This document shows, in pieces, positions 9,113 to 26,059 of a stretch of DNA of 64,000 nucleotides. Position 1 is the first letter of the stretch. The number at the start of each line of letters is the position of its first letter. The DNA comes from Candidatus Zixiibacteriota bacterium (GTDB taxonomy: Bacteria > Zixibacteria > MSB-5A5 > GN15 > PGXB01). The stretch covers positions 1-64,000 of the forward strand of contig JAFGTT010000032.1 in the NCBI GenBank assembly GCA_016933955.1, written 5' to 3'. The translations under genes were made by a program, and so were the position numbers. The notes beneath the pieces are model-generated. The model was not told where the DNA came from and ran no database searches. It worked only from the letters and a program-made list of their open reading frames with translations.

Positions 9113-9988
9113 TCAGCCGCTCAAGGCAAATCGCTCCTTGATCATCCCCCGTAACTTGACCACCGCCTTGGTATGTATCTGTGATACCCGCGATTCGGAA
9201 ATCGACATCACTTCACCGATTTCTTTCAAGGTCAATTCTTCAAAATAATAAAGAGCAATTACCAGTTTTTCCTGCTCGGTCAGACGGTCGATGGCCGTCA
9301 CGAGAAAAGCGCGAAGTTCGCTCTTTTCCAGATCGCCGAGGGCCGACTGCTGATTGGTTTCTCTTATCGTTTCAATCCGAGGAACCTGGTGGTTATCCTC
9401 TTCTTTATATATCGTCTCATCCAGCGAAAGCAGGCTGGCACAGGAAACATCGCCCATCGCCGTCATCAACTCCTTCATCGAATAACCGAGCTTCTCCGCT
9501 ACTTCATCATTGGACGGCATCCGACCGAAATCATTTCCCAGAGCCACAATGGCCCGCTCGATCTCCCGGGATCGGGCCCGGGTTGAACGCGGCACCCAAT
9601 CCAGAGCGCGCAATTCATCCAGTATGGCACCGCGGATACGCGGTACAGCGTATGTTTCGAACTTGACACCGCGATCCGGATCGAAATTCCGAAAGGCTTC
9701 CACTAACCCGATCACCCCGGTGTTGATCAGATCCGACAACTCCACCGAGCGCGGAAATCCGATCGCCATTCGGCCGGCTACATTGCGTACCAGAGGCAAA
9801 TACCTCCTGAGTAATTCTGCACGGGCATCGGAGCATCCGTGCCGCTGATAGCGCAGCCATTCCAGAGTATTATCCTGCTTTTTCCGGACCGGCCGGGCGG
9901 CTTCCTTGGCTTCGTAAACCGGAATCCGGCTGGTCTTCAAGCCTTTCCCGGCTACCTGTTTTGCTCGAGTTTTTTGCGTGCTAGTCAT
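9113..9988 (-). CDS. fliA: RNA polymerase sigma-28 factor FliA/WhiG
   Basis: 291 residues with sigma regions 2 (core binding; LLRRYLPLVRNVAGRMA, DLINTGVIGLVEAFRNFDP), 3 (RGAILDELRALDWVPRS, hallmark of the FliA/WhiG group) and 4 (LTLKEIGEVMSISESRVSQ helix-turn-helix). An N-terminal extension of about 35 basic residues precedes the core. FliA reads late flagellar promoters (filament, chemotaxis). It is the last recognisable member of the flagellar cluster, 6 bases after flhG. I see no anti-sigma FlgM gene in the window. Confidence 0.95.
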   Translation of the reverse strand: MTSTQKTRAKQVAGKGLKTSRIPVYEAKEAARPVRKKQDNTLEWLRYQRHGCSDARAELLRRYLPLVRNVAGRMAIGFPRSVELSDLINTGVIGLVEAFRNFDPDRGVKFETYAVPRIRGAILDELRALDWVPRSTRARSREIERAIVALGNDFGRMPSNDEVAEKLGYSMKELMTAMGDVSCASLLSLDETIYKEEDNHQVPRIETIRETNQQSALGDLEKSELRAFLVTAIDRLTEQEKLVIALYYFEELTLKEIGEVMSISESRVSQIHTKAVVKLRGMIKERFALSG

Positions 9989-9994
9989 TGAATG

Positions 9995-10867
9995 CTATTT
10001 CCTTATATCGGCTAATAACTTTTTGGAGTTTATATCCTGTTGACCCATTATTTTTCTGCGATTAAGTTCCGTTTTTCGGACTTCCACCAGAAGTCCGGAC
10101 AACCTGTTCAATTTTTCAACAGCCGTTGCCCCGGGGTAAATTTCGACGATCGGTTTCTGTTTCGCCACCGAATCAACAACATGTTGATCGTCAAACAGAT
10201 AACCGGCCCCAAGGGGAATCCTGTTCAGGAACCTCTCGGAGAGAACGGTGAACTTCTGGTAGATATATTCATAATCTTCCTGCCCCCTTACCTTGTTAAG
10301 AAAAATGTATGCCAGAAAATCTTTATTTCTCGAAATGAGGTATTTAAATAACCCATAACCATCCGCAATCGAGGACCATTCCGGGTTTATTACGATCAGA
10401 TTGATATCGGCCATTGATGCCACCCGGGAGACCATTTCGACCCCTCCCGAAGGTGTATCGATAAGGATGAACTCATAGTCCCCGAACAGCTTGGGGAAAT
10501 CGGTAAAAAGCTTGTCGAAATCTGCCGGACGGATATCTCCAACAGTTGCACCGCATGATGGTGAGGCCAGCAAATCAAGACCGGAATTAATACGAAAAAC
10601 CGCTTCGGAAACATCGACCTTGCCCTTAATCAGGTCGGAAAGAGTGTATAAAGGCGAGACATTGGCCAGAATATGAACATCTCCGAAATACCAGTCGCCG
10701 TCGAGAAGCAAACAGCGATAACCCATCCCGGCCATAATAACGACCAGATTGTAAGCCAGAACCGTTTTACCGGTGCCGCCCTTGCCCGATATAAAAGATA
10801 CCACGGTTGGTCGCGTATCAACGATTTCCCCGGGTTTTACAAATTCCCGCCGCCGTTCATTATTCAT
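9995..10867 (-). CDS. flhG: MinD-like ATPase FlhG, flagellar number/placement regulator
   Basis: 290 residues. A deviant Walker A motif SGKGGTGKT (about 28-36) marks the MinD/ParA family; LIDTPSGG and the switch aspartates follow. FlhG partners with the FlhF GTPase, encoded immediately upstream with an 8-base overlap, to control flagellar number and site and in some species C-ring assembly. The usual C-terminal amphipathic membrane helix may be the basic segment in the last 30 residues. Confidence 0.92.
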   Translation of the reverse strand: MNNERRREFVKPGEIVDTRPTVVSFISGKGGTGKTVLAYNLVVIMAGMGYRCLLLDGDWYFGDVHILANVSPLYTLSDLIKGKVDVSEAVFRINSGLDLLASPSCGATVGDIRPADFDKLFTDFPKLFGDYEFILIDTPSGGVEMVSRVASMADINLIVINPEWSSIADGYGLFKYLISRNKDFLAYIFLNKVRGQEDYEYIYQKFTVLSERFLNRIPLGAGYLFDDQHVVDSVAKQKPIVEIYPGATAVEKLNRLSGLLVEVRKTELNRRKIMGQQDINSKKLLADIRK

Positions 10868-11978
10868 AACTTCTTACCTCCAGTTTCAGAAGACGGCGGG
10901 CTATCGCGGCCGTATCCGGTGCCATCAATTTTCCCATGCCGGCCGGAGAATCCGTAATAAAAGCCAGTGGAATATTCAGGTACTCGGCCATGGTCATAAT
11001 CCCTCCCCATCGATCTGTTTCATCAAGATGACTGGCGATCAGGTAATCCGGTCGCAGAACTTCGAACAAGTTGATCGCATCGATCAAGTCGTGAGAACGG
11101 GTGCCGACTGAAAAGACGAAGAAGGTGAGATCCGGCTTGATTTGTTGAATCAGGTTCTGCATTTCCCGACGATGTTCCTCATCGCGGCTGATGGCCGGAG
11201 TATCAATCAGCAGAATAGATTCCCGGCCGGATTTCTCGGCCTCTGCTTCCAATCGCCCGACCGGCAGTCCCAACAAATCCGCATACGCACCGATTTCCTC
11301 ATTAGCGGATATCTTCATATGATCCAGCGACAGCAATTTGAGTTTTTGTCCGAATTTGGTACAGAGCTGGGCCGCCACCTTGCCCAGAACCGAAGTTTTT
11401 CCTGCACCTGAGGAACCAATAAAAAGCAGTTTCATTCCGGGGTGAATAGTCAGACTGGATCGGGTAATGGCCTCCAGTTCACCGAGTAATACCCCCATAG
11501 CCACCTGGTCGATATTTTTCGATTCGGCCATGTTGTCCCTGATTCCAGAGGCAATTCGGTGCGCTATTTCAACCGGGATATCGCTGTCAAGCAAGTTCAG
11601 GAAAACCGGCCTGATGGTACTGTCAAGATCGGCAAATAGATCTGGCGCCCGATGAGCACTCAGGATTTGATTCAGGGCTTGTTCCACCCTGCCCGGATCA
11701 TATTCTCGTTCGGCTGCCTTTTGAGAAACCTGAATCGGGCTCCCATGCTTCGCGTTGCAGTCAGCAGTCGTTCCGGCCGTTTTAATTTTCGCCACTTTCC
11801 TGCGGTCAACCGCTTTCTCATCGATACAGGCCGTCACCTCGACTCTCTGTCCCGTCAGGCTCACCTCTTCTTCGGGGCAAACCCTGGTTTTAAGGACAAT
11901 CGCGTCGCCGCCCAGTTCTTCTTTGATTTTTTTCAACGCCGCGGCAATGGTCGGCGCACCGTACGATTTAATTATCAT
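10860..11978 (-). CDS. flhF: Flagellar biosynthesis GTPase FlhF
   Basis: 372 residues of the SRP-type GTPase family: a B domain at the N-terminus (start MIIKSYGAPTIAAALKKIKE is typical of FlhF), a helical N domain, and a G domain with G1 GSSGAGKTS, a DTPA element and the LDETDRWGG G4/closing region. FlhF marks the pole or site of flagellar assembly and is antagonised by FlhG. It overlaps flhA by 11 bases and flhG by 8 bases. Confidence 0.93.
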   Translation of the reverse strand: MIIKSYGAPTIAAALKKIKEELGGDAIVLKTRVCPEEEVSLTGQRVEVTACIDEKAVDRRKVAKIKTAGTTADCNAKHGSPIQVSQKAAEREYDPGRVEQALNQILSAHRAPDLFADLDSTIRPVFLNLLDSDIPVEIAHRIASGIRDNMAESKNIDQVAMGVLLGELEAITRSSLTIHPGMKLLFIGSSGAGKTSVLGKVAAQLCTKFGQKLKLLSLDHMKISANEEIGAYADLLGLPVGRLEAEAEKSGRESILLIDTPAISRDEEHRREMQNLIQQIKPDLTFFVFSVGTRSHDLIDAINLFEVLRPDYLIASHLDETDRWGGIMTMAEYLNIPLAFITDSPAGMGKLMAPDTAAIARRLLKLEVRSYE

Positions 11979-14043
11979 TTTCGAAACCTACCACTCCGGT
12001 CGAGACGACCTCGACATTGTTACTGATTTCGTTATAGGACAGGACTACCAGACCGGGGTACGATGTCTCGACCAGCCGTCGCAGGGCCAGGCGAATATTG
12101 GGCGAACACAGACAGACCGGCGTATGACCGGATTCTTCCGCCCGCTCGACCTGGCGGCCAATAGCCCGGACAATCATCTCGGAATCGGCCGGTTGCAATA
12201 CCAGCATCAAACCCTGCTTGGTGTTCTGGACCGAGTCGGTCAGTTTCTGCTCCACCGCTGGATTGACCGTGAAAACATGGATTTTGCTCTCATGATCCTT
12301 GTACATTTCAGTGATCCTCCGCCGCAGGGCCATCCGCACATACTCGGCAATAACATCAGCCTCCTTCGTGGCCGGATAATAATCGGTGATGGTTTCCATT
12401 ATCGTTACCAGATCGCGAATCGGAATCCGTTCGGTCAGAAGCGCCTGAAGGACTTTCTGCACCACCGCCAGCGGAACCACCTCGGGAACGACGCCATTGA
12501 CCAGCGAGGGCTGATCCTCCTTGAGTGTTTGTATCAGATGGCTGACATCCTGACGGGAAAGAAGTTCCGCGGCGCGCGATTTGATGATTTCGGTCAGATG
12601 CGTCGATAGAACGGCCGACGGCTCCACCAACGTGTAACCACGGGCTTCGGCCGTCTCTTTCAAATTGGGGATAATCCAGACTGCTTTCAACCCGAAGGCC
12701 GGTTCGGTCACCTCAAAACCATCCAGATGCTCGGTGACATAACCGGGATTGATGGCCAGCAGGTGATCGCTCATGATTTCATAAGCGGCCACCGGCAAAC
12801 CCTTCACCTTGATGCGGTACTGGTTGGGACTGAGTTGAATATTATCACGAATTCGGATCGGCGGGACAATCAGGCCCAGTTCACCGGCCAGTTGTTTTCG
12901 AATGGTCGAAACCCGTTCCAGTAAATCGCCACCCTGGGCGACATCAACCAGAGAAATCAAACCGTAACCGATTTCCACTTCAAGAGAATCGACTTTGAGT
13001 AAATCCTCGGTCCGCTCGGCCGGGGGAGATTGAACCGCTTCCGCCGCTTTGCGCTTTTCCTCGGCCTGTTTTTTCTTCATGCTTTCATTGGTCATATATC
13101 CCACCGTCCCGATCATCAGGCCCAGCAAGATAAACGGCAGGGTCGGCATTCCGGGAACGATCCCGAACATGATCAGCATTCCGGCCGCGATCATTATCGC
13201 CCGAGGTTGACGGATCAATTGCCCGGTCAGGTCTTTACCCATATTCGAAGTCGAAGCGGCGCGCGTAACAATTATACCGGCTGCCGTGGAAACTATCAGC
13301 GCCGGAATCTGTGTCACCAGTCCGTCACCCACCGAAAGCAGGGTGTACATTCGTAATGCTTCCGAGGCCGTCTTGCCCTGCATCAGGATACCGATGACGA
13401 AACCGCCGACGACATTGATCATGGTAATCAGGATACCGGCAATGGCGTCCCCGCGAACGAATTTCGAAGCACCATCCATGGCCCCGTAAAAATCCGCCTC
13501 GCTGGCGATTTCCCGCCGGCGGGTCTTGGCCTCTTCCTCGGTAATAAGTCCGGCATTCAAATCAGCATCGATAGCCATCTGTTTGCCCGGCATGGCATCG
13601 AGGGTGAATCGGGCCGCCACTTCCGAAATACGTCCCGCACCCTTGGTGATCACCACAAACTGGATGATGACCAGGATGACAAAGACTATGAAGCCGACCA
13701 CGTAGTTGCCCTGGACGACAAAATTACCGAAGGAGTTAATTACTTCGCCGGCATAACCGGTGCCGAGAATCAGCCGGGTCGAGGCCACATTCAACGCCAG
13801 GCGCAGGAGGGTTACGATAAGAAGCATGCTCGGAAAAACCGACAGGTCTAACGGTCGTTTGATATACAATGTCGAAAGAAGAATTACCAGTGAAAAGGTG
13901 ATATTGAAGGCCAGGGCGAAATCGAGCAGTCCCGGCGGAACCGGAATCACCAGAACGCCGATAATCCCGACTACCGCTACCGCCAGAATAATATCTGACT
14001 TCTGCAGGACATTGTTCAGAAAAGATCCGTTATTAATATTCAT
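11968..14043 (-). CDS. flhA: Flagellar type III export gate protein FlhA
   Basis: 691 residues, usual FlhA length. The N-terminal half has eight predicted membrane segments, with the conserved FHIPEP-type region read here as DAMPGKQMAIDADLNAG. The cytosolic C-terminal half (about 340-691) forms the chaperone/substrate docking nonamer ring. It starts 3 bases before flhB ends and overlaps flhF. Confidence 0.97.
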   Translation of the reverse strand: MNINNGSFLNNVLQKSDIILAVAVVGIIGVLVIPVPPGLLDFALAFNITFSLVILLSTLYIKRPLDLSVFPSMLLIVTLLRLALNVASTRLILGTGYAGEVINSFGNFVVQGNYVVGFIVFVILVIIQFVVITKGAGRISEVAARFTLDAMPGKQMAIDADLNAGLITEEEAKTRRREIASEADFYGAMDGASKFVRGDAIAGILITMINVVGGFVIGILMQGKTASEALRMYTLLSVGDGLVTQIPALIVSTAAGIIVTRAASTSNMGKDLTGQLIRQPRAIMIAAGMLIMFGIVPGMPTLPFILLGLMIGTVGYMTNESMKKKQAEEKRKAAEAVQSPPAERTEDLLKVDSLEVEIGYGLISLVDVAQGGDLLERVSTIRKQLAGELGLIVPPIRIRDNIQLSPNQYRIKVKGLPVAAYEIMSDHLLAINPGYVTEHLDGFEVTEPAFGLKAVWIIPNLKETAEARGYTLVEPSAVLSTHLTEIIKSRAAELLSRQDVSHLIQTLKEDQPSLVNGVVPEVVPLAVVQKVLQALLTERIPIRDLVTIMETITDYYPATKEADVIAEYVRMALRRRITEMYKDHESKIHVFTVNPAVEQKLTDSVQNTKQGLMLVLQPADSEMIVRAIGRQVERAEESGHTPVCLCSPNIRLALRRLVETSYPGLVVLSYNEISNNVEVVSTGVVGFENDN

Positions 14044-15114
14044 TTACGACACCTTTTCCTGTTTCTGGCGATACACAAAGGCCAGGACCTCGGCTACCGC
14101 GCGGTACAACTGCGATGGCACATAGGAACCGATTTCACACATATTGAACAGCGACCGCGCCAGCGGTTTGTTTTCCACAATCGGCACTCCGGCTTCGCGG
14201 GCAATATCCTTGATTCTCTGTGCCAGCAGGCGCTCACCCTTGGCCACCACCATCGGGGCATCCATTTCCGTCTGATCATATTTCAGCGCTACCGCCAAGT
14301 GCGTCGGGTTGGTAATCACCACGTCTGCCTTCGGAACCTCCTGCATCATGCGACGGCGGGACATCTCCCGCTGAATCCTCCGGATCCGTCCTTTGATCTG
14401 CGGCGACCCCTCACTTTCTTTCATCTCTTCCCGGATTTCCTGTTTTGACATGCGGATCGATTTTTCGAAATCATACTTCTGATAAGCGTAATCCAGAAGG
14501 GCCAGAAGGAGAATAACGCCGCCGACCTGGAGAACCGTCTTGAGGGCCATCTTCCCCATCGCCGCGGCAAAAATCGAGGCCGAGGTGTCGGAGAGCAGAA
14601 AGAATGTGTCCATCTGCGATTTGATCACCAGGTAACCAACTGCCGCAATCAGAAGAATTTTGATTACATCGCGGGCAAGCTGGAACAACGACCGGGCGGA
14701 GAACAAACGCTTGATGCCGCTGACCGGATTCAACCGGTCGGTTTTCGGCTCCAGGGGTTTACTGGTGAACATAACCCCCACCTGGAGGATATTGACCCCA
14801 TAGGCAATCAGCGTCAGCATAATCAGAATCGGGCCGAGAAGAAGGAAGAAATTGATGATGTTATGGTTGAATAAACTCACTATCGAGTCGAAATCGGCCG
14901 CCAGTGCAGGAGCCTCGTTAAAAATATAAATCGACATCTGTTCGAGTTGATTGGCCAGAAGCGGACCAAGAAAATATATGGTCATGATTCCCAAACAGAG
15001 GATCACCGCCGAATTGAGCTCCATGGAGCGGGCCACCCGACCCTCTTCCTTGGCTTTCTGACGTCGGCGCGGTGTCGCGCGCTCGGTTCGTTCCTGAAAT
15101 TGATCTTCCGCCAT
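14044..15114 (-). CDS. flhB: Flagellar type III export switch protein FlhB
   Basis: 356 residues: four membrane segments followed by a cytosolic domain containing the autocleavage motif NPTH (269-272), which switches export from rod/hook to filament substrates. The N-terminus (ERTERATPRRRQKAKEEG) is the standard FlhB lead. It follows fliR by 9 bases and abuts flhA. Confidence 0.97.
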   Translation of the reverse strand: MAEDQFQERTERATPRRRQKAKEEGRVARSMELNSAVILCLGIMTIYFLGPLLANQLEQMSIYIFNEAPALAADFDSIVSLFNHNIINFFLLLGPILIMLTLIAYGVNILQVGVMFTSKPLEPKTDRLNPVSGIKRLFSARSLFQLARDVIKILLIAAVGYLVIKSQMDTFFLLSDTSASIFAAAMGKMALKTVLQVGGVILLLALLDYAYQKYDFEKSIRMSKQEIREEMKESEGSPQIKGRIRRIQREMSRRRMMQEVPKADVVITNPTHLAVALKYDQTEMDAPMVVAKGERLLAQRIKDIAREAGVPIVENKPLARSLFNMCEIGSYVPSQLYRAVAEVLAFVYRQKQEKVS

Positions 15115-15123
15115 GACTGCCTT

Positions 15124-15918
15124 TTACACCGTTCCAATTGCGAACAAAACCCGGGCTATTTCCGTATCGAGGAAAAAGACCGTTTTTTCGACCATAAATC
15201 TGAAAACCGGTAACGCCGCCGCCAGAACCAGAAGGCCGATTGCAATTTTTATGGGAATACCAACAATAAATATATTCATCTGCGGTACTGTTCGGGCTAC
15301 CACCCCCAAAGTTACCGATGTCAAAAAGAGGGTGATGATTACCGGGGCGGCGATCTTGATGGCAATGACAAAGGTATAGCCCGAATAACGGATCAGCATC
15401 TCCCCCGCCGAGCCAGCGAAATTAAACACCCCGATCGGAACCGCCCGATAGCTGTCGGCGAAAGCTGAGATAATAGCATGATGTCCGTTGATGGCCAGGA
15501 AAATAAGAATCGCCACCAGGTGCCAGAATTCCCCGATAATCGAAATTTGTGAATTCGATTCGGGGTCCAAAACCGTCGCCATCATCAAACCGATCTGATA
15601 ACCGACAATATGCCCGGCCATTTTAATGGCAATGAAAACAAACGAGAAAAACCACCCGATTATGAAACCCACCAGGAGTTCCTTGGCCGCCATCAATCCC
15701 AGCAACCAGACCGAGTTTATCTCCGGCAGGTTGACCTCACCCACCACCGGAACCAGAACTACCGCCAATACCACCGCAAAGGCGGCTTTGACCAATCTGG
15801 GGATCGAGTCGTGACCGATTATGGGGGCGGCGATGAACAATCCGCCGGCCCGGAAGGCTATCAGCAGGAAGGTTTCCAGTTTGGCGGCTGTGAAGGTTAC
15901 AAAATCAAACAATTCCAT
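15124..15918 (-). CDS. fliR: Flagellar export gate protein FliR
   Basis: 264 residues with about six membrane segments and the FliR hallmarks RAGGLFIAAPIIG near the N-terminus and VLDPESNSQISIIGEFW in the middle. It forms the export gate with FliP and FliQ. An unusually long gap of 192 bases separates it from fliQ in an otherwise tightly packed cluster. The gap has no gene; it may hold an internal promoter or stability element, but I cannot point to a convincing one. Confidence 0.95.
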   Translation of the reverse strand: MELFDFVTFTAAKLETFLLIAFRAGGLFIAAPIIGHDSIPRLVKAAFAVVLAVVLVPVVGEVNLPEINSVWLLGLMAAKELLVGFIIGWFFSFVFIAIKMAGHIVGYQIGLMMATVLDPESNSQISIIGEFWHLVAILIFLAINGHHAIISAFADSYRAVPIGVFNFAGSAGEMLIRYSGYTFVIAIKIAAPVIITLFLTSVTLGVVARTVPQMNIFIVGIPIKIAIGLLVLAAALPVFRFMVEKTVFFLDTEIARVLFAIGTV

Positions 15919-16110
15919 TACCTACAATTCGGGTTACTCGTCAAGTCTTTAATCAAGCTTTATGCCAACCCGATCGGGCCGCTTTATAATTATGTAATTT
16001 ATTGGGATCTAACGAATTATGACGGCGGCTTGAATTCCTGGCGGGAGCCTGTAGACCGCCGATGGGAAAGGATTGCCATACTCGAAAGAAAAGTTTTCGC
16101 CGGCCACCTC

Positions 16111-16374
16111 CTAAAGTGTCGGAATGATGTTATAAATGCGATTGGTGAAATCAATTATAATATTCATTATCCAGGGGAGGAAAATAATCAGAGCCACCGC
16201 TACGGCCACTATTTTAGGGATAAAGGTCAACGTCATTTCATGAACCTGGGTTATAGCTTGAAGGATGGATATTATCAAACCCACCAAAAGTCCGGCCAGA
16301 AGCATCGGTGCCGATACCAGAAGCATCGTCAGTACCGCCTCGCGGGCGATCGTAATTACCAATTCTGGAGTCAT
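16111..16374 (-). CDS. fliQ: Flagellar export gate protein FliQ
   Basis: 87 residues with two membrane segments and the family motifs AREAVLTMLLVSAPMLLAGL and LQAITQVHEMTLTFIPKI. The ATG at 16374 is chosen because it gives the family length and has AGAGG 6 bases upstream; the frame stays open to 16443, overlapping fliP, but that extension is not FliQ-like. It starts 10 bases after fliP. Confidence 0.95.
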   Translation of the reverse strand: MTPELVITIAREAVLTMLLVSAPMLLAGLLVGLIISILQAITQVHEMTLTFIPKIVAVAVALIIFLPWIMNIIIDFTNRIYNIIPTL

Positions 16375-16384
16375 CTCGACCTCT

Positions 16385-17140
16385 TCAATAAAATGATCCG
16401 ACCAGCGACTTGACCAACAGATACCAGCCATCCACCAGGACAAACAACAATATCTTAAAAGGCAGCGAGATCATAATCGGCGGCAACATCATCATTCCCA
16501 TCGACATCAAAACCGATGAGACAATCATGTCTATAATCAGAAAGGGAATGAATATCAAAAAGGATATCTGGAAACCCGTCCGCAACTCCGATATGACAAA
16601 TCCCGGTATCAATATATGCAGCGGTAAATCTTCCGGCGTCTGGGGTTGCTCCATACCTGCGAGGTTGACAAAAAGAGCAATATCCTTCTCATTGGTCTGG
16701 GACAGCATGAATTCCCGGAACGGAGTCATACCTTTATCAAAGGCTTCTTCTTTGGTAATCTTTTCATCCAGGTACGGTTTTAATCCGTCGGTGTATGCTT
16801 TATTGGCCACCGGACTGATAATAAAGAAAGTCAGAATCAGGGCCAGCGAGACCAGGAGTTGATTCGGCGGCAACTGCTGTGTTCCCATCGCCTGCCGCAA
16901 AAACCCGAGGACCACGATCAACCGGATGAAGGAGGTCAACATCAGGAGAATCGATGGCGCCAGAGTCAGGACCGTCAGAAGCAGTATAATTTGCAGGGTG
17001 GTGGAAAGGTCACCCGGCGAGGACGATTCCCCCAGTTGGACCGACAATTTGGGGATTGATTGCGCCTGGCTGACCGATGTCAGGCATATCAGGCAGAACG
17101 AGAGCAAGACAATTTTAGTTATTCTATGTCTCATATTCAT
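16385..17140 (-). CDS. fliP: Flagellar export gate protein FliP
   Basis: 251 residues from the ATG at 17140; another ATG at 17134 and a TTG at 17164 are alternatives. A cleavable signal peptide (hydrophobic core, cleavage near SQA) is normal for FliP. Four membrane segments and family motifs are present: TLAPSILLMLTSFIRLIVVL, LRQAMGTQQLPPNQLL and the C-terminal SMGMMMLPP. It builds the export pore with FliQ and FliR. Confidence 0.95.
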   Translation of the reverse strand: MNMRHRITKIVLLSFCLICLTSVSQAQSIPKLSVQLGESSSPGDLSTTLQIILLLTVLTLAPSILLMLTSFIRLIVVLGFLRQAMGTQQLPPNQLLVSLALILTFFIISPVANKAYTDGLKPYLDEKITKEEAFDKGMTPFREFMLSQTNEKDIALFVNLAGMEQPQTPEDLPLHILIPGFVISELRTGFQISFLIFIPFLIIDMIVSSVLMSMGMMMLPPIMISLPFKILLFVLVDGWYLLVKSLVGSFY

Positions 17141-17197
17141 CCAATGAGCTTTTTTTAAATCCAATTTAAGCCGGCCATTTGGACGGCAGCTAAAATA

Positions 17198-17803
17198 TCA
17201 GACCGTCTGTGGTCTATCGGACGTGACCGATGTCAGGTCCGCCCCGGCTTTTCCCATGCCAAGGCTCATCATACGATTCCCGGCCGCCTTCAGAAGACTC
17301 CGGAAACTTGGCCCCATTTTCTCCGCCGATCCCAGGGCCAGAATTTTTGCGGTCTCCTCCGGATTCAATTCGGCCAGAATATTGATTCCGGATTCCGCCG
17401 AACCAACCAGGACCGCCCGATCATAAAAACGGACCAGTGAAATCGATTTCTTTTGCTCCAGGTAGGTCGTTTCGATGACCTCAATCAGCTTCCGGTTTCC
17501 ATTGCCCGAGAATTTCCGACCCATCATCCGTCGCAGGATAAAAACGAATCCGTAGATTCCGGCGACCACCACCACCAGCGCCCCCAGCAATTTGATCAAT
17601 GACCAGGCCACCGAATCCTGGAAAACCGGAGTGGTAGGCGAAGTTGTCCCATCACCGGATACCGATGCCGTCTCCTCCAAACCGGTCGCCGTCGTCCCGG
17701 TGGTATTCGCCCTGGCACCATCGAAATGCGTCGAGATATAGGCCCCGGCGCTGATAATCAGCACTATTATTATCAGAACCAGTTTTTTATTCTTGGTACT
17801 CAT
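17198..17803 (-). CDS. fliO: Flagellar biosynthesis protein FliO
   Basis: 201 residues: an N-terminal hydrophobic segment (about 8-26), a serine/threonine-rich linker, a second membrane segment (about 68-90), and a cytosolic FliO domain with [20 protein letters not shown]. FliO helps stabilise FliP during gate assembly. The ATG overlaps the stop of fliN. The two hydrophobic stretches and glycine-rich linker are longer than in enterobacterial FliO but common in other phyla. Confidence 0.88.
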
Positions 17804-18420
17804 GCCAGGTTCTTCAACCTTTCCTCGGGTGATACCAGCTGGGTAATCCGGAGACCGAAGCTCTCCTCGACCACCACCACTTCACCCCGGGCCACACATT
17901 TTTTGTTCACCAGCAGATCGACCGGCTCACCGACCAGTTTGTCCAGTTCGACAATAGAGCCCGGACCAAGAGCCAGAATATCTGAAATCCTCATCCGGGT
18001 TCGTCCCAGTTCAATCGAAACCGGCAAATCGACATCCATCAATAAGTCAATATTGCGGGGAGTCTGGTTTTCGGATTGCATCGACAACTGCTGGAAATCG
18101 GCCTGATGGACCTCGGGCTGAAGCTGCTCCGGCATATCATCGGTCATTCCATCAGCCGCGGACCCGAGAGCATTATCGATAGCTTCCTGACTTAAAAGCT
18201 CCGATCCTTCCCCTGAATTATCATCACCTTCATCCGCGGAGGATTCATCGGGCGAGGATTCGGACTCGTCTCCGGCATCGCCGGCGCCCATCGCCAGCAT
18301 TTCCTTTTCTTCGGGAGTCGGCTCATTGCCCGACTCCTGCCCTGAAACGGCGTCGTCTTTGATTTCCTCATCCGAGGGATTTCCATCCATAGGCAAATTT
18401 ATCCCGTTTTTTTCATCCAT
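17800..18420 (-). CDS. fliN: Flagellar motor switch protein FliN, with long acidic N-terminal extension
   Basis: 206 residues. The C-terminal 80 residues are the FliN/SpoA domain ([37 protein letters not shown]). The first 120 are acidic and disordered. They include [12 protein letters not shown] (75-86), which resembles the CheY-P-binding peptide of FliM (LSQDEIDALL at the start of the neighbouring FliM). This recalls FliY, although no CheC-type domain lies between. It sits 6 bases downstream of fliM. Confidence 0.93.
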
Positions 18421-18426
18421 GCGCGA

Positions 18427-19425
18427 TCACTCCTTCTCTATGACCGGATATATTTCCAATATCTGGCCGGCCCTTCTTTTTCCAAGCAAACCCGGCCGGC
18501 ATAAATATTTCTTTTTCCCCGCCACCATCACCTCGGCTGACTCATTAATCTTGGAATCGGTCGCTACGATATCGCCGATCTTCAATTCCAGGAACTCCCG
18601 CATTTTCAGCTTTGTTTTGGCCAGCGAAATAGCCACCTCGATATCTACATCCTGTATATTATCACGATTTTTCTCGGTACTTTCGCCGATATTCCTTTTC
18701 TTGGTGGCGTCGATCCAGTTCTGGGCCGACAGTTTCTCCATCACCGGTTCCAGCGATACATAAGGATAACAAATCGTTATCAAGCCGGTCGATTTGAACA
18801 GCTTCAATTGCAGTGAAACCACAATCACCGTTTCGCCGGCCGGTATAATTTGCATAAATTGCGGATTGGTTTCGAATGATTTCTGCTCGACCTCGATCGG
18901 CGCGATATTCCGCCATGATTTTTCCAGGTCGCCGTATATTTTACGCGTGATTTTGGACATTACCGTCTTTTCGATCCCGCTCAACTCCCGCTCGATTTCA
19001 AGACTTTTCTCCCCTCCGCCGAAAATGCGATCGATAAAAGCAAAGGACAGGGTCGGGTTATAATCCAGAATACACAATCCTTCCAGAGGTTTAGCGGAAA
19101 AGGTATAGGAACAGGACGGTGTCACCAGCGACATCACATACTCCGAATAATTGATCTGATCGACCGATACCAGATCGACATCAACCATACTCCGCAGAGC
19201 GGTCGAAAGAGTCGAACTGATATGACCGGCAAAGTTATCATGAATGTTTTCCAGCGTCCTCACCTGGTCTTTGGATACCCGGTTGGGATGCTTGAAATCA
19301 TAGGTGACGACGGTTCGGGCCAGTTCCTCCGAAGCTATCGGTGTAAGTTCCGGCTGTTCCGACGGACTCGCCGTTACGGTCGTCAACAAGGCATCGATTT
19401 CGTCTTGTGATAATATCTTCGCCAC
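18427..19425 (-). CDS. fliM: Flagellar motor switch protein FliM
   Basis: 332 residues: N-terminal CheY-P-binding peptide (ILSQDEIDALLTTV, 4-17), a CheC-like middle domain starting at about residue 45 (YDFKHPNRVSKDQVR) and a C-terminal SpoA/FliN-like domain (about 255-330). It forms the C-ring with FliG and FliN and sets rotation sense. It lies 19 bases after fliL. Confidence 0.96.
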   Translation of the reverse strand: MAKILSQDEIDALLTTVTASPSEQPELTPIASEELARTVVTYDFKHPNRVSKDQVRTLENIHDNFAGHISSTLSTALRSMVDVDLVSVDQINYSEYVMSLVTPSCSYTFSAKPLEGLCILDYNPTLSFAFIDRIFGGGEKSLEIERELSGIEKTVMSKITRKIYGDLEKSWRNIAPIEVEQKSFETNPQFMQIIPAGETVIVVSLQLKLFKSTGLITICYPYVSLEPVMEKLSAQNWIDATKKRNIGESTEKNRDNIQDVDIEVAISLAKTKLKMREFLELKIGDIVATDSKINESAEVMVAGKKKYLCRPGLLGKRRAGQILEIYPVIEKE

Positions 19426-19444: not shown

Positions 19445-19969
19445 TTACTGAAGGATAAAATCGGTAAAATATACTGCCTGCAGGTCATTGATCTGAAGAA
19501 GCTGCTCCGTCCGCTTCTTGATCTGATACCGCGTGATCTCTTTCTGTTTGGCATCGGAAAGCTGCTCGATGGTTTTGGAGCCCAGGATAGTTATCAGGGC
19601 ATCCTTGATAACCGGTTCCCGCTTTTCAAGCAGTGCCAGAGTTTCTTTGGAGCCCACATCGAAACCGATCGAAACCGAAAGGAACCTGGTTCCGCCCGTT
19701 CCCGAGGGGTTGACGATAATATCCTGCATCATATAGACTTCGGATACTCCGGCGGGCTTTTTGGCTTCCTCACCTTTATGCTCCTCGCTCTTCGCCGCCT
19801 CCGGTTCCTTGGTCGAGGAGCCCGTCAGCCTGGTCCCGGCAAAATAACCACCGACCGCCATTATGACGGCGATGATGAGATAGATAATTATCGGCGAGCT
19901 TTTCTTGCTTTTGCCGGCCGCTCCTTCTTCGGCCAGAGCGGTTTCGTCGCCCAGTTTGTCATCAGCCAT
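19445..19969 (-). CDS. fliL: Flagellar basal-body-associated protein FliL
   Basis: 174 residues: a short cytosolic lead, one membrane segment (about 26-46), a glutamate/lysine linker, and the periplasmic FliL domain (about 78-174) containing IIVNPSGTGGTRFLSVSIG. FliL supports stator function near the motor. motA and motB, which usually sit between flbD and fliL, are absent here. Confidence 0.92.
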   Translation of the reverse strand: MADDKLGDETALAEEGAAGKSKKSSPIIIYLIIAVIMAVGGYFAGTRLTGSSTKEPEAAKSEEHKGEEAKKPAGVSEVYMMQDIIVNPSGTGGTRFLSVSIGFDVGSKETLALLEKREPVIKDALITILGSKTIEQLSDAKQKEITRYQIKKRTEQLLQINDLQAVYFTDFILQ

Positions 19970-19983
19970 ATTATTCCATCCTT

Positions 19984-20202
19984 CTACTGCTTATTATCTC
20001 TTAAACCGACTTTTGCCTCAAGGCTTGATGCCATTCTTCGAAAAGCCGCCACCCTCTTTATAATTTCATCAGGATCTTCCCTGACCATAATTTTCTTCCC
20101 ATCGGTCAGACTGATTATGGTATCGGGCGTCTCCTCGATGAATTCGATGAGGTCATCGTTTATAACAATGACCTCACCGTTCAATTTCGTCACACGAATC
20201 AT
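19984..20202 (-). CDS. flbD: FlbD/SwrD family flagellar protein
   Basis: 72 residues with the family signature: MIRVTKLNGEVIVIN at the start, IEFIEETPDTIISLTDGKK in the middle, and a short C-terminal helix. Small FlbD-type proteins follow flgE in many flagellar operons; SwrD in Bacillus increases motor power. It lies 14 bases after flgE and 14 bases before fliL. Confidence 0.9.
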   Translation of the reverse strand: MIRVTKLNGEVIVINDDLIEFIEETPDTIISLTDGKKIMVREDPDEIIKRVAAFRRMASSLEAKVGLRDNKQ

Positions 20203-20216
20203 CTAATTCCAACCTG

Positions 20217-22124
20217 TTATCTCTTCAGGTTTACCAGTTCATCAAGCATGTTGTCGGAGGTGGTAATAATCCTGGCATTAGCCTGAAAACCTCTCTGAGC
20301 CGTAATCATGCTTGTAAATTCCGAGGCAATATCGACCGAGGACGCTTCCAGGGCCCCCGATGAAATCACGCCCGAAATCGTTTCCCCGGCCACGCCCTCG
20401 ATAGCGTCACCGGAGTTGGCCGAAGCCTGGTACAACGACTGTCCCGCTTTAAGCAAACCGGCCTGATTATTGAAATCGGCCAATATCACCTGAGCCAGCA
20501 CCCGGCTGACACCATTGGTGAAAATGCCGATAATATTGCCGGCTTTATCAATTGAGATTTTGTCAAGAATCCCCAGGCTGTATCCATTTTGCGTCAGGAT
20601 CGAGGCCGTATGAGCCGAGGCGAATCCGGTCAATCCGTCATATTCGCCGATCGTCCCGGAATTGATATTAACCGACATCGGACCGGCCCCGGTTCCCGGA
20701 TCAAACGTGAGGGCCGTGGCCCCGCCATTAAAATTGAAAGACAGAAGTGAACCATCGGGGTTAAACTGCACCGTCCCGCTGCCGCCACCGGTGATTACCT
20801 CGTTATCGTTAAAGGACGCCGTCCAGGTCCAGGTGTTCTGATTGGCCGACTTGAGAAATTCCAGTGTCAAGGCATGTTTGCCGCCCTGGGCATCATAAAC
20901 CGTAATCGACGCGGCATGGGTTGTGTCGGCCGTGTTAATAACCGCCGTCCCGGCGCTCAAACCACTCAGGGTGTCGATTTCCACGCCTCCGTCACCCAGA
21001 CCGTCAATACCGATTGCCAGACCGGAAGTATCATCGACCACAATATCCAGCGTCACCGGGGTCAGAGCCGCGGCTCCAGTTGGAGTAAATACATCCTGGC
21101 AGACAAAAGTATGGTCGGATCCGTTATTGGCTGTAAAGACGCCTCCGAATATCTCATTGACAATATTCCCCGCGACCGCCGCCGAAGATTGAATATTGTA
21201 GTCAACGCCTGAACCGGCCCGTTCCCGAGTGATCTGTATTTCGCCGCCCACCAGCTCGGCATTGACGCCGCTGATCTGGTTGATGGCATTGATCAGGTCA
21301 TTGATTGTAGAATTGACCGTTAATCCCATTACTTCATCAATATGAGTCCCATTATCCCGGGACAGGGTAAAATTACTGGTATCGGTTATCCCGAGACTGG
21401 CCAGAGTCATACTGCCCGACAGCGCACTCCCGCTGGTATTGGTCCCGGTGAAGGTCGAGGTCGTTGCCTGCGCTCCGGTAATTGTCAGGGTGTGGACGCC
21501 GCCGGCGCCGTCCACGGCATCGCCGGTGACATTGTTGATTCCCGTTGTCCCGGCCGACTGCAACGTGGCTTCCGAATCGGTCGCCACCGAATTAAGATTG
21601 TTGCCCAGCGTAACAGCCGTTGTGGCACTGGCCGGATCCTGTTGACCGAATGGCAGCGTGATATTGCCGACCACCGCGCTCGACGGAATATTGCCGTTGG
21701 CGTCAGCCATCTTTCCCTGGACAAACATTCCGGTCGAGGGATCAACCAGGGTCGAATTGGCATCGAATCCAAAAGCTCCGGCCCGGGTGTAATACTTGCC
21801 GCTACCGTCAGACAGCACAAAGAATCCCGACCCCTGGATTGCCAGGTCAGTAATCTGCCCGGTAGTCTCAAGACCGCCCTGCTGGAAAAGATTATCGATC
21901 GTGGAAACCCCCATCCCCAATCCCAGCTGGAGCGGGTTGGTTCCGCCCGATATAGTCGAGGGACGGCCGGCACCTTTGTATGTCTGGACCAGGGCCTCAC
22001 GGAAAGTTACCCGGCCGGTTTTAAAACCGACGGTATTGACATTGGCGATATTATTGCCAATCACATTCATCTTGACCTGGTGGTTTCTAAGTCCCGAAAC
22101 CCCGGCGAACATTGATGCCATCAT
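20217..22124 (-). CDS. flgE: Flagellar hook protein FlgE
   Basis: 635 residues. The N-terminal D0 signature is MFAGVSGLRNHQVKMNVIGN and NIANVNTVGFKTGRVTFREA. The C-terminal D0 helix is ASSVDIASEFTSMITAQRGF. The middle 400 residues hold threonine/serine-rich D1-D3 domains, larger than in the 400-residue enterobacterial FlgE. GGAGG lies 10 bases before the first of two tandem ATG codons. It is exported by the FlhAB/FliPQR gate encoded downstream. Confidence 0.96.
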   Translation of the reverse strand: MMASMFAGVSGLRNHQVKMNVIGNNIANVNTVGFKTGRVTFREALVQTYKGAGRPSTISGGTNPLQLGLGMGVSTIDNLFQQGGLETTGQITDLAIQGSGFFVLSDGSGKYYTRAGAFGFDANSTLVDPSTGMFVQGKMADANGNIPSSAVVGNITLPFGQQDPASATTAVTLGNNLNSVATDSEATLQSAGTTGINNVTGDAVDGAGGVHTLTITGAQATTSTFTGTNTSGSALSGSMTLASLGITDTSNFTLSRDNGTHIDEVMGLTVNSTINDLINAINQISGVNAELVGGEIQITRERAGSGVDYNIQSSAAVAGNIVNEIFGGVFTANNGSDHTFVCQDVFTPTGAAALTPVTLDIVVDDTSGLAIGIDGLGDGGVEIDTLSGLSAGTAVINTADTTHAASITVYDAQGGKHALTLEFLKSANQNTWTWTASFNDNEVITGGGSGTVQFNPDGSLLSFNFNGGATALTFDPGTGAGPMSVNINSGTIGEYDGLTGFASAHTASILTQNGYSLGILDKISIDKAGNIIGIFTNGVSRVLAQVILADFNNQAGLLKAGQSLYQASANSGDAIEGVAGETISGVISSGALEASSVDIASEFTSMITAQRGFQANARIITTSDNMLDELVNLKR

Positions 22125-22220: not shown

Positions 22221-22610
22221 CTAAAGTATCACGGCCGAATCGATCGACGTGAAAACCCCCTCCTGCAAACTGGCGCGACTGAAGGCCGTTATTATGGTCC
22301 GGCTTGGAACCGAGGCCACGTAGGCGGCATCATCATCCAGGATCAGAGTATCCTTCGATCCCTTCAGAGCCGCTTTGTCAATCGCCTGTGAAAGCTGACT
22401 GAGCTTCTCATCCGACAACTCAATCCCCCGAGAGTACAGCCGCTGCTGGGCATGTTTGGAAATACTCAGTCCCTGACTGCGCGATAATTCCTCCGAGAAA
22501 GTCGTCTTGAATGATGCCGCTTTCTCTTCGGACTGATTTGCCTGCTCCGTTATGCCGCGATTGGCAATCTCCAGCAGGCGGACTTCTCTGTTAAAATCAC
22601 TGATTTTCAT
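22221..22610 (-). CDS. Flagellar operon protein of the TIGR02530 type
   Basis: 129 residues, cytosolic. The central motif SKHAQQRLYSRGIELSDEKL and the C-terminal DDDAAYVASVPSRTIITAF match the small conserved flagellar operon family found between flgD and flgE. Its role is not established; a chaperone-like function in hook assembly has been suggested for the position. It starts 2 bases after flgD ends. Confidence 0.88.
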   Translation of the reverse strand: MKISDFNREVRLLEIANRGITEQANQSEEKAASFKTTFSEELSRSQGLSISKHAQQRLYSRGIELSDEKLSQLSQAIDKAALKGSKDTLILDDDAAYVASVPSRTIITAFSRASLQEGVFTSIDSAVIL

Positions 22611-22612
22611 TC

Positions 22613-23302
22613 TCAGCCCTCATTCTCATCCGATTCGCTGATAGAATTGACGCCGGACAACGGTATTTCCAGTCCGCCGACCTTCAGATATGCCGAACCA
22701 TCCCGATACACCACACCATCGACGCGACCCTGGATAAAGGTCGAGGGATCGAAACTGCCGCCGCTGGCGTCAATGGCCGATATCTCGACCTGGTAGTACC
22801 CGTCATCAAGTCTCTCGCCGTCATCATCTTTACCATCCCAGACGATGGTATTGGAACCGGCCGCAACATCTTCCTCGGTAATGGTCCGAACCACCGAGCC
22901 GTTAATGTCGGATATGGTTATCGTAACCTTGTCGGCATACTGGGTGGTGGTATAGCCGATCATAGGTGTATTATCACTGTCCAGATAAACACCACTGAAA
23001 GTGGCCTCGACATCTTTGCCGATCAGCGAGGTTGCCATGGTGTTGTTGATAGTCTGCATCTGAAGGTAATCCCAATTCAACGACTCACTGAGCGATTCAT
23101 TGATATTACTCATCTGTTCCAGACTTGAGAACTGGGCCAAATCGGCGATAAAAGCCTCATCATCCATGGGATCCAGCGGATCCTGGTGGGTCATCTTGGT
23201 AATCAAAAGCTGAAGAAAATCGTCTTTTCCCAGCTCTTTCAAGGACCCGGTGGCGATTTCATTGCCATTGGCATCGGTTGCAACCGGTGAAATTATACCC
23301 AT
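22613..23302 (-). CDS. flgD: Flagellar hook capping protein FlgD
   Basis: 229 residues. The N-terminal capping signature is LGKDDFLQLLITKMTHQDPL followed by DDEAFIADLAQFSSLEQM. The C-terminal part is the FlgD Ig-like domain with TIVWDGKDDDGERLDDGYYQ. FlgD caps the growing hook so FlgE can polymerise. It follows fliK by 9 bases. Confidence 0.95.
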   Translation of the reverse strand: MGIISPVATDANGNEIATGSLKELGKDDFLQLLITKMTHQDPLDPMDDEAFIADLAQFSSLEQMSNINESLSESLNWDYLQMQTINNTMATSLIGKDVEATFSGVYLDSDNTPMIGYTTTQYADKVTITISDINGSVVRTITEEDVAAGSNTIVWDGKDDDGERLDDGYYQVEISAIDASGGSFDPSTFIQGRVDGVVYRDGSAYLKVGGLEIPLSGVNSISESDENEG

Positions 23303-23311
23303 AATTATCTC

Positions 23312-25003
23312 CTAAGCCAGCCAGTTGACTCCCCCGGAACCGATATAAAGACCCACTCCGGAAGATCGGTCGACTGATGTCATTTCCGTTGATATCCGAT
23401 TTGCCTGACGGTTTACATCATAGCGGTAACGCCCGTGCGATGACATTCTGTCCGGCGAATATTTCTGCCCGATCTGACCGCCGCCGATTGAAACCTGGAA
23501 GGAATCCAGCTTGATCCCCTTGGACGACAATCCCTCGAATAACTGCTGAAGATTGCTTTCAACAGCCGCCCGGGCGGTGGAATTATCGACCACCATGCGG
23601 CCGCAGATAGCATCATGATGCGAGCTCAAAGTCAGGCGGACCGTTCCCAGATGCTCCGGTTCGAGCTTGATGAATACCGTGCGATTATTATTGGTCCCTT
23701 CCGATTTAACATTGTCCGGAAGGACAAACCGAACCGGCGTTATTTCTTTAGTGTCCGCAGTTGTGCCTGATTTGCCTGAATCGGCAGCCGCCGTATGAGT
23801 GATCTCCGGCGATGTTGTCTTAAGATCAACAGCATTCTTGCTCGATAACTCTCCTGCGGTATTATTCGCTTTTATTATTCCATTTGAATCCGGCTCTTTC
23901 TTTTCCTCGACATGAGTAGAATTCGGTCCGGCAGAACCTGTCCTTCCATCACCGCTTTCAACCGGCTTAACGGCTTCCATTGTCTGCGACTGACCTGCTT
24001 CAACCTGCCTGGATTGGTTCCTGCCGGCATCCTCTGATTTGATAGCCTTGGTGTCTTTGGTAATATGAACCGCCATACCTGGACGCGATAAAACTGATTT
24101 CATATTCTTCTGATGATCATTTTCACCGGCGGAAATTTCCGAATCGGCTTTCAGTCCGTCATTCTCGGGTTTCATCTTCGAATCGCTGATCTCAACCTCA
24201 TTAATGTTGAGCGCATTCTGTAACCGGGTCATACTCTCGGCCATCTTCGAATTGGCCATATCCGGTGTTTGCTTGGTTATGTATGATACCGAAACCTTAA
24301 GGTTTGTCTCCGTTTTTTGATCCGAATTCCCGAGTACCATCGGATCTTCCTCGATTGCGCTATTATCCGTTAACCCGGAAAATATATCAAGGTGTCTGGT
24401 CGATGATCCCGTCGTGGGTACAACGGTATTTGCGGAGAATAACCGGCTATTTAATGATGATGCTTTATCTGATAACGATTCGGTCGGCAGCCCTTCCAAT
24501 CCCGGAATGGAGACCTCCGTTTCGGGTTCCTGTCCGGTATTTATCATATTCTCAACCGGCATGGTTTTTTCCGCCGATATATTAACCAGCCCTTTGACAT
24601 CAGAATTTATTCTATCGAAAAGAATATCGTTTAATACTTGTTCAGAGTCATCCTGTCCCGAGAGCGATAATATGGCCTGTTCCTTGTCTTGACTATCAGC
24701 CGGCCATGTTCCAGTCAGCAAGACTTCCGTCGTTCCGGCCTTAAGGAATAAATCGTTTAACAGAATCGTCTCCTGATTATCCCCCGATAATGCCGATTTT
24801 TTATTTTCCGGCAGAATATCAAGTAATCCCTTACCGCCTATTGCATCCTCTTCTCCATCCGATATTTGTATCCCTTCCAGAAGAAGATCCATGAAATCTC
24901 CACCCGACACATCAGCCGGATTTCCGGCCGGCTGTTTCCCGGTCACATCAACCTGTCCGGTGCCGGTATTCAGGAGATTCATTGTCAGCAGAAACGGATT
25001 CAT
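23312..25003 (-). CDS. fliK: Flagellar hook-length control protein FliK
   Basis: 563 residues. The long N-terminal part is low complexity, rich in Ser, Asp, Glu, Lys and Asn, as expected of the molecular ruler. The conserved C-terminal domain (about 440-515) includes FIKLEPEHLGTVRLTL and LQQLFEGLSSKGIKLDSFQV and contacts FlhB to switch export specificity. It abuts motE (no intergenic base) and precedes flgD. Confidence 0.9.
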   Translation of the reverse strand: MNPFLLTMNLLNTGTGQVDVTGKQPAGNPADVSGGDFMDLLLEGIQISDGEEDAIGGKGLLDILPENKKSALSGDNQETILLNDLFLKAGTTEVLLTGTWPADSQDKEQAILSLSGQDDSEQVLNDILFDRINSDVKGLVNISAEKTMPVENMINTGQEPETEVSIPGLEGLPTESLSDKASSLNSRLFSANTVVPTTGSSTRHLDIFSGLTDNSAIEEDPMVLGNSDQKTETNLKVSVSYITKQTPDMANSKMAESMTRLQNALNINEVEISDSKMKPENDGLKADSEISAGENDHQKNMKSVLSRPGMAVHITKDTKAIKSEDAGRNQSRQVEAGQSQTMEAVKPVESGDGRTGSAGPNSTHVEEKKEPDSNGIIKANNTAGELSSKNAVDLKTTSPEITHTAAADSGKSGTTADTKEITPVRFVLPDNVKSEGTNNNRTVFIKLEPEHLGTVRLTLSSHHDAICGRMVVDNSTARAAVESNLQQLFEGLSSKGIKLDSFQVSIGGGQIGQKYSPDRMSSHGRYRYDVNRQANRISTEMTSVDRSSGVGLYIGSGGVNWLA

Positions 25004-25831
25004 CTAATCCACCTTCACCGTGATTAATTGGGTCGAAAGTTTGGCCGCCCGCTTGGGAGGCATCATAGCCAGAATTTTCGAGGCATTGGCCGGTTTCATC
25101 CTTGGTAGTATTGCCGTCACAATCGAATCCGGAAGATTCGCAAACAGCTTGGCAACTTCATCCGGTTTCATTCCGTCGTACAACCGGGCCAGTTTGATAA
25201 TCCGGGCCGACTCGGCTTGATCCAGTTTAACCAGGCTTTGCCCGACCGTATATTCAAGCGCCTTCAGTTGCCTTTCCCGGCTGTCGATTTCCACCCGGCG
25301 ACGGTTCAGACTGTCCATCTGCTTCTCAATCCAGTTGAGCGTATCCGATGAATCTTTCGGAGTCATTCCCAGCTCTTCAGCCGAATTTTCCATCTCCGGC
25401 GTCCAGAACAGGAAATCCAGTTCCTTCATTATTGCGGCCGTATCGATTTCAAGTATGTCCACATCCTTCTTGGTAAAGCCTGATGAAACCGAATCAGTCT
25501 TGCCGCCCGTGGTCTCTTTATGTGCTATATTATCAGGAGGTATGGCTTTCTTCTGGTGCTCGTCCGAAACCGTTTCACCGGCGGCCGTCTCATGACTGAC
25601 TTCCACCGTTTCCGTTGATGAGGTCTCTTCACCCGCGGGTTTATCATTGTCTCCATTGAAGACAAAGAGAAACAGAACGGCGGCCAGGACAAACGCCCCG
25701 AAGGCGCTCCCGGCCGGAATCAAGTACGGTTTGAATCGATCTATCAGCGAGGCCTTCTTTGGCGGCTCATCGTCCAATCCGTAAACTTCCTCTTCGACTT
25801 TCTCAGCTTTCTTATCTTTATCATCAGCCAT
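25004..25831 (-). CDS. motE: MotE-like flagellar protein with MgtE-N-type domain
   Basis: 275 residues from the ATG at 25831. That start is fixed by the sigma-54 promoter at 25869-25885 (the longer open frame to 25906 would begin upstream of it) and by AGGA a short distance before the ATG. One membrane segment (about 34-54) follows an acidic N-terminus. A long coiled coil (about 180-225) precedes a C-terminal MgtE-N/FliG-like domain with GMKPDEVAKLFANLPD and ILAMMPPKRAAKLS. MotE proteins chaperone or stabilise MotB/stator parts in other bacteria. It heads this flagellar transcription unit. Confidence 0.85.
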   Translation of the reverse strand: MADDKDKKAEKVEEEVYGLDDEPPKKASLIDRFKPYLIPAGSAFGAFVLAAVLFLFVFNGDNDKPAGEETSSTETVEVSHETAAGETVSDEHQKKAIPPDNIAHKETTGGKTDSVSSGFTKKDVDILEIDTAAIMKELDFLFWTPEMENSAEELGMTPKDSSDTLNWIEKQMDSLNRRRVEIDSRERQLKALEYTVGQSLVKLDQAESARIIKLARLYDGMKPDEVAKLFANLPDSIVTAILPRMKPANASKILAMMPPKRAAKLSTQLITVKVD

Positions 25832-25868: not shown

Positions 25869-25885
25869 AAGCAACGGTTGTGCCA
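25869..25885 (-). promoter_or_regulatory. Sigma-54 promoter of the flagellar cluster
   Basis: The minus strand reads TGGCACAACCGTTGCTT, a near-consensus RpoN -24/-12 promoter (GG and GC ten bases apart). Transcription would start near 25860, about 30 bases before the motE ATG. No obvious sigma-70 boxes compete here. The whole leftward cluster may depend on it. Confidence 0.75.
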
Positions 25886-26059
25886 ACATTGTTTCAACTG
25901 CCACAACGCACTACATCACAATAGGTTGCGGACATGAGAGCAAAGCCGGCGGGCGGAAAAAAGGAATCGTAAAAGAAAAGTTTTCCTGATTGTCAGGTAA
26001 AATTGTTCGGATTGTCGGATATGGATTAAAGAAAAAAGACCGCTACATTATATATGTAT

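Follow-up and report, generated by a model that had tools for sequence, protein, structure and literature searches.

The window analysed here, 64,000 nucleotides of a Candidatus Zixiibacteriota genome, carries a long series of flagellar genes headed by motE, the gene of an E-ring protein. The locus raises the question of whether these genes are transcribed from a sigma-54 (RpoN) promoter, how far the control by such a promoter would reach, and which activator would serve it. An earlier note on this DNA had placed a sigma-54 site on the minus strand about 30 bases before motE, had suggested that some 17 kb of flagellar genes depend on it, and had pointed to an activator gene elsewhere in the window.

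The sigma-54 element in front of motE

The genes from motE to fliA lie on one strand, the minus strand, with small gaps between them. Most were assigned by Pfam, and in the order of transcription they are motE (25004-25831, with an MgtE_N domain), fliK (23312-25003), flgD (22613-23302), a putative flagellar protein of the Flagellar_put family (22221-22610), flgE (20217-22124), a small ORF called flbD (19984-20202, named by position, without a family search), fliL (19445-19969), fliM (18427-19425), fliN (17800-18420), fliO (17198-17803), fliP (16385-17164), fliQ (ORF at 16111-16443, with the true start further in; named by position and sequence), fliR (15124-15918), flhB (14044-15114), flhA (11968-14043), flhF for an SRP54-type GTPase (10860-11978), flhG for a ParA/MinD-like protein (9995-10867), and fliA for sigma-28 (9113-9988). 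In the available part of one source, the E-ring component is identified as a MotE-type protein that has an MgtE_N domain (PMC13023049).

The element upstream of this operon, TGGCACAACCGTTGCT (25870-25885, minus), was identified by pattern matching and by its conserved position in relatives. It is an exact match to TGGCAC-N5-TTGCW, with the −24 GG and the −12 GC at the correct spacing of N10, so that the sigma-54 site claimed for the minus strand is indeed there. When up to one mismatch to this pattern is allowed, it is the sole match in the window, where 1.24 are expected. The exact form, TGGCACRNNNNTTGCW, occurs twice in the whole genome (3.38 Mb), one of the two being the site before motE, and the reversed control gives no match. 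The other exact core, at 8552-8567 of stretch L125 (contig C28), stands before a 962-aa ORF and just after a gene with an activator domain. With an approximate RpoN weight matrix, the element before motE scores 18.4 bits, compared to 10.8 for the runner-up in the window and 16.5 for the best of ten shuffled windows; the exact-pattern results are independent of the matrix.

The distance from the element to the ATG of motE at 25831 is 38 nt, somewhat more than the earlier estimate. The longest ORF of motE opens at a TTG (25906) that lies upstream of the promoter, which makes the ATG at 25831 the reasonable choice and supports the proposal that the promoter fixes the start of the gene. Further upstream is a miaB-like radical-SAM gene (UPF0004, by Pfam). 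The sigma factor itself is present: a full rpoN gene at C32:203386 encodes a protein of 467 aa with the AID, CBD and DBD domains, and the absence of such a gene, which would have spoken against the whole proposal, can be set aside.

It is important to point out that the core sequence by itself would not be enough to claim a promoter. With one mismatch allowed, the whole genome contains 73 sigma-54 core matches and the control 59, which means that a near-match by itself says little; statistics on single sites with one mismatch lacked the power to decide the matter and were dropped. These counts are one argument for regarding the match before motE as chance or as a relic, with the operon transcribed from sigma-70 promoters. 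Another is that sigma-70-like sites do occur between 8000 and 27500, where 32 were found and 20.3 are expected. Against this reading stands the conservation, across genera and families, both of the placement of the element and of the enhancer discussed below, and we consider it very improbable.

To assess the conservation of the element, the DNA upstream of flgD was taken from 34 relatives and searched for motE by tblastn. The gene was found in 32 of these stretches, as well as in the window, and was without a match in L091 (genome G004) and in L097, which is short. Of the 32 relatives with motE, 30 have the top-scoring sigma-54 site of the entire stretch, on either strand, just before motE, the exceptions being L103 and L107. 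When the best site was picked by force from a short upstream window, a score of at least 11 bits was reached in 32 of 33 cases for motE, and also in 29 of 31 for flgB and 29 of 33 for flgF, compared to 1.35% of 5402 random windows. Scores below 11 were obtained for motE in G016, for flgB in G026 and G019, and for flgF in G016, G019, G011 and G022. We regard the element before motE as real and functional-looking, and on the strength of its sequence and position it would form the core of a true sigma-54 promoter, called P_motE.

One relative departs from the common arrangement. The single-contig genome G004 (L091, L351) has flgD, with no motE upstream and no fliL-flhB matches downstream, and in the survey of the fliR promoter its stretch gave no match to any of the nine query proteins. 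It also gave no ortholog, at the cut-off used, of the activator encoded in the window. The missing motE, fliL-flhB and activator could reflect either loss or an assembly gap.

Further predicted promoters and a common enhancer motif

The earlier note had advised a search for matching promoters before other flagellar loci, and these were found. A second flagellar cluster, on contig C4, was located by way of its rod-type, flagellin and FliF domains. It contains genes for a PAS histidine kinase and a REC-AAA-HTH response regulator together with motA, motB, flgC, fliF, fliG and fliH, and further flgF, flgG, flgA, flgH, flgI, flgJ-like, flgN, flgL-like and flagellin genes; one ORF was read as FliE, and flgB, for which Pfam gave no match, was named by position. 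Sigma-54 sites stand before flgB (C4:35771-35786) and before flgF (C4:27246-27261), and both recur in the relatives at near-fixed places. The order kinase, regulator, motA, motB, flgB, flgC, fliF is kept in most of the relatives.

Scanning together with conservation also identified a sigma-54 site inside the motE operon, P_fliR (TGGCATAAAGCTTGAT, 15952-15967, minus), which lies 48-59 nt before fliR in all 20 genomes with a fliR match, the own genome included. Its core is conserved and weak: in 18 of the 20 genomes the −12 part is not TTGC but either TTGA, as in the window, or TTGT. Upstream of it, motif matching finds an enhancer site, GGCAATCCTTTCC (16065-16077, minus; 9/10), and, 22 bp away, a distal enhancer-like site, CGAAAACTTTTCT (16087-16099, minus; 8/10). 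Since both enhancer and core are conserved at P_fliR, the 17 kb would not be served by P_motE alone. The proposed dependence of this region on sigma-54 thus stands as far as control of the motE operon and its content of hook, export and fliA genes are concerned, but not as dependence on a single promoter.

We now consider the enhancer, which was found de novo. When dyads were counted without a preset motif upstream of 96 of the promoters, GGAA-N5-TTCC was present in 39 (0.5 expected) and GAAA-N3-TTTC in 43 (1.2 expected). The motif GGAAANNNTTTCC is present at 8/10 or better within 260 nt of all 97 motE, flgB and flgF promoters, compared to 15% of random windows, and at 9/10 or better at 72 of the 97, compared to 1.9%. 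When the search is narrowed to a 63-nt enhancer zone, a match of at least 8 is still found for motE in 33/33, for flgB in 31/31 and for flgF in 33/33, while shuffles of the zone lead one to expect 2.5, 1.7 and 3.0 promoters, respectively, about 7 in total. The dyad is likewise found upstream of 20/20 fliR promoters. At P_motE it is GGAAAACTTTTCT (25974-25986, minus), a motif match of 9/10 located 101 nt upstream of the TGG, at an offset that the relatives share: 31 of 33 motE enhancers fall between −101 and −104, and the flgB and flgF enhancers spread from −89 to −125. A partner site (at least 7/10) lies 21-23 bp away at 72 of the 97 promoters, compared to 3% of random positions. The sequences themselves show that the elements are present, keep a fixed geometry and are conserved, and the arrangement corresponds to what is expected of a sigma-54 promoter with an enhancer at a distance upstream. 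The conserved dyad upstream of all motE, flgB, flgF and fliR promoters appears to be new here.

Between enhancer and core, CAANNNNTTR, which we take to be an IHF-like core, is enriched in the three promoter sets (7/33, 11/31 and 9/33 for motE, flgB and flgF, compared to about 0.8 each in shuffles), and lies at ca −28 to −19, counted from the TGG in the −24 part. A fixed form of this element, TAA-N13-NAA-N5-TA, scored 0, and the element is not claimed as a defined site.

Enhancer and core, searched for as one pattern, gave 67 matches in 40 genomes including the own one, and the reversed pattern gave 3. In our own sorting, 37 of the 67 lie outside the motE, flgB and flgF places, although two of these (L327 and L329) proved to be flgF. 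The next-gene proteins behind the extra matches fall into families of 9, 4, 4, 3, 3 and 2 members, the last being flgF, and singletons, one of which reads as fliR. Enhancer and sigma-54 pattern also occur before genes that read as non-flagellar (L293-L329), with a polysaccharide-export-like protein of ca 780 aa in 9 genomes. As judged by reading of the sequences, without a family search, the extra targets would include polysaccharide-export-like (Wza-like), PHP-type and sugar-nucleotide (PseB-like) enzymes or proteins. Several of the extra matches are embedded in longer ORFs and could have arisen by chance. Given the non-flagellar targets, another activator could share the GGAAANNNTTTCC site; two activator queries (E 1e-15) found no conserved activators beside these targets.

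The probable activator and the extent of the proposed regulon

The activator gene named in the earlier note (46010-47455, minus) is encoded in the window as stated, and a domain search finds in its product an AAA+ domain with GAFTGS and a Fis-type HTH. As an activator of the flagellar genes it is a weak candidate, one of 24 strong matches (E 4e-33 or better) among the 29 that the sigma-54 activator domain has in the genome, and it is probably not the flagellar activator. The kinase and response regulator encoded beside motAB-flgB on C4 are a better candidate, because they form a pair inside the flagellar cluster. In the orthologs of this regulator the receiver Asp is conserved in 26/26, and an RTIRNKL-like recognition helix is conserved as well. 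The variation of the sigma-54 contact loop speaks against this candidate: the loop is GAFTGA in the own copy, and in the orthologs it is GAFTGA in 12 of 26, GAFTDA in 11, GSFTGA in 2 and GAFTHA in 1. By sequence, the nearest solved structures are of the NtrC family, and the matches include domains of FlrC and FleQ. The link between this regulator and the enhancer is drawn only from location and motif likeness.

The opposite assignment, with the activator of the window as a FleQ/FlrA-like master regulator that lacks a receiver and binds GGAAANNNTTTCC, has several points in its favor. Its orthologs occur in 36 of 40 genomes, the own one included, and in 11 relatives they lie on the contig of flgD, 19-30 kb from it; Pfam recognised no receiver or other N-terminal domain in it, as in one-component regulators. 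FleQ also connects flagella with exopolysaccharide, and some of the enhancer targets resemble polysaccharide export genes. However, the gene overlaps and follows that of RNase R (47452-49626) rather than flagellar genes, the FleQ N-terminal domain was not among the domains reported by Pfam, and G004, a genome that is 83% complete, has no match to this activator at the cut-off and yet keeps the flgB and flgF enhancers. We consider this assignment quite unlikely. At 51016-52140 of the window there is a weak match to TIR_2, which does not reach the curated cut-off.

With the regulator from C4 as activator, the following scheme is, in our view, likely. RpoN polymerase would bind the −24/−12 element of P_motE, and the regulator, of FlbD/FlrC/FleR type and encoded with its kinase near motAB-flgB, would bind GGAAANNNTTTCC sites ca 90-125 nt upstream of the −24 part, often paired two helical turns apart. 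From there it would remodel the polymerase. As the four promoters before motE, fliR, flgB and flgF have enhancer and core in common, most flagellar genes would belong to one sigma-54 regulon, which would take in fliA and nearly all genes for rod, hook, MS-ring, switch and export. The promoter of the main flagellin would in turn be read by FliA. Here the occupancy of the sites, the identity of the enhancer-binding protein and the order of expression are what we infer.

The last step agrees with the earlier suggestion that fliA at the end of the operon serves late genes. A scan with a sigma-28 consensus finds, at C4:14765-14791 ahead of the main flagellin, a sigma-28-like site that fits a late FliA class. 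Another flagellin gene, of 257 aa, was noted at 4724-5557 of L138 (C19:164724), between genes read from the sequence as ftsZ-like and serS-like; a sigma-54-like site, TGGTATGCCTTTTGCT, lies shortly upstream of it.

Another option is a Vibrio-like arrangement in two tiers, in which two activators with similar enhancer sites would serve early and middle genes. The 24 strong activators of the genome would leave room for this, and the weakened core at fliR and the different enhancer offsets of motE on the one hand and flgB and flgF on the other are in line with it. Still, one dyad is common to all four promoters, and a single activator was seen in the stretch of the conserved flagellar cluster that was read, so that we regard two tiers as unlikely and retain the single regulon.

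Relation to known flagellar systems

Sigma-54 control of flagella is in general already known and is described in many lineages in the available parts of several sources (PMC3162934, PMC12316311, PMC4641369, PMC2725144). According to the text available for V. cholerae, P. aeruginosa and C. jejuni, a kinase-regulator pair drives the rod and hook genes after the export gate and MS-ring have been expressed otherwise (PMC7064773), and FlrC of V. cholerae also covers fliMN, fliOPQR and flhB (PMC6504787). As far as these accounts go, the present genome resembles the FlrBC, FleSR and FlgSR systems in having RpoN, a kinase and an NtrC-type regulator with a conserved receiver Asp in the flagellar cluster, separate flgB and flgF promoters, FlhF/FlhG, fliA and a sigma-28-like flagellin promoter. 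The early class of those species is either constitutive or controlled by FlrA/FleQ, while no FlrA/FleQ-type tier was identified here. A restriction of the switch to rod and hook genes is not seen either: the same combination of enhancer and core appears at the fliF, fliP-R and flhA operons, and from promoters and gene order fliF, fliG, flhA, flhF, flhG and fliA, that is, MS-ring and export-gate genes included, appear to be under the common switch as well. A further difference is that the enhancers are upstream here, whereas FlrC sites, as described, are typically downstream of the start.

The palindromic form of the enhancer is that of Caulobacter FlbD/ftr and of D. vulgaris DVU1063, as far as described in the available parts of the sources (PMC3333781, PMC3930126). 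FlbD binds GGCA-N5-TGCC and DVU1063 GGCA-N4-TGCC (PMC3333781). GGAA-N5-TTCC has the FlbD spacing but differs in the third base in most sites, the dominant half-site being GGAAA and not GGCA; some GGCA and GGTA half-sites are found at P_fliR. In the same accounts FlbD and DVU1063 have atypical receivers, whereas the C4 regulator keeps the Asp in 26/26. For Geobacter sulfurreducens, RpoN promoters are described before flgB, fliL...flhB and the flhA...fliA operon (PMC2725144). The borders of the operons differ, as motE comes first here and P_fliR is internal, and the part of that source available describes no activator site for these operons.

The enhancer was also searched for at 80 named flgD loci, where candidate promoters were defined by a score of at least 13 followed by an ORF. 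For 55 of the 80 the surroundings of flgD were examined, and most of these had no strong sigma-54 site there. An enhancer of 9/10 or better was found at 13 of 69 candidate promoters. When the three Zixibacteria/GN15 loci are left out, the count is 10 of 65, compared to 0.19 in shuffles, and the labels of these ten are Nitrospinaceae, Syntrophaceae, Desulfobacteraceae, Desulfobacula, Nitrospira, Deltaproteobacteria, Pseudomonadota or Proteobacteria. It is conceivable, and we put it forward tentatively, that GGAAANNNTTTCC, in most cases paired at two helical turns, is an old flagellar sigma-54 enhancer code of Zixibacteria, Nitrospinota, Nitrospirota, Desulfobacterota-type and other groups, read by one FlbD/FlrC-family line, and that in Zixibacteria it forms a single tier for the entire basal structure and was recruited to the export of surface polysaccharide.

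No description of flagellar regulation or RpoN in Zixibacteria was found among the titles listed from the open-licence literature, and promoter, enhancer and regulator together provide a candidate code for flagella in this group. A single tier would bear on models that make the kinase wait for export gate and MS-ring, because the genes for these structures would need the same switch. If the enhancer is common to several phyla, flagellar regulons could be read from the MAGs of uncultured groups, and the age of sigma-54 flagellar control would become testable by one binding motif. If the enhancer in Zixibacteria also serves polysaccharide export, motility would be tied to the cell surface.
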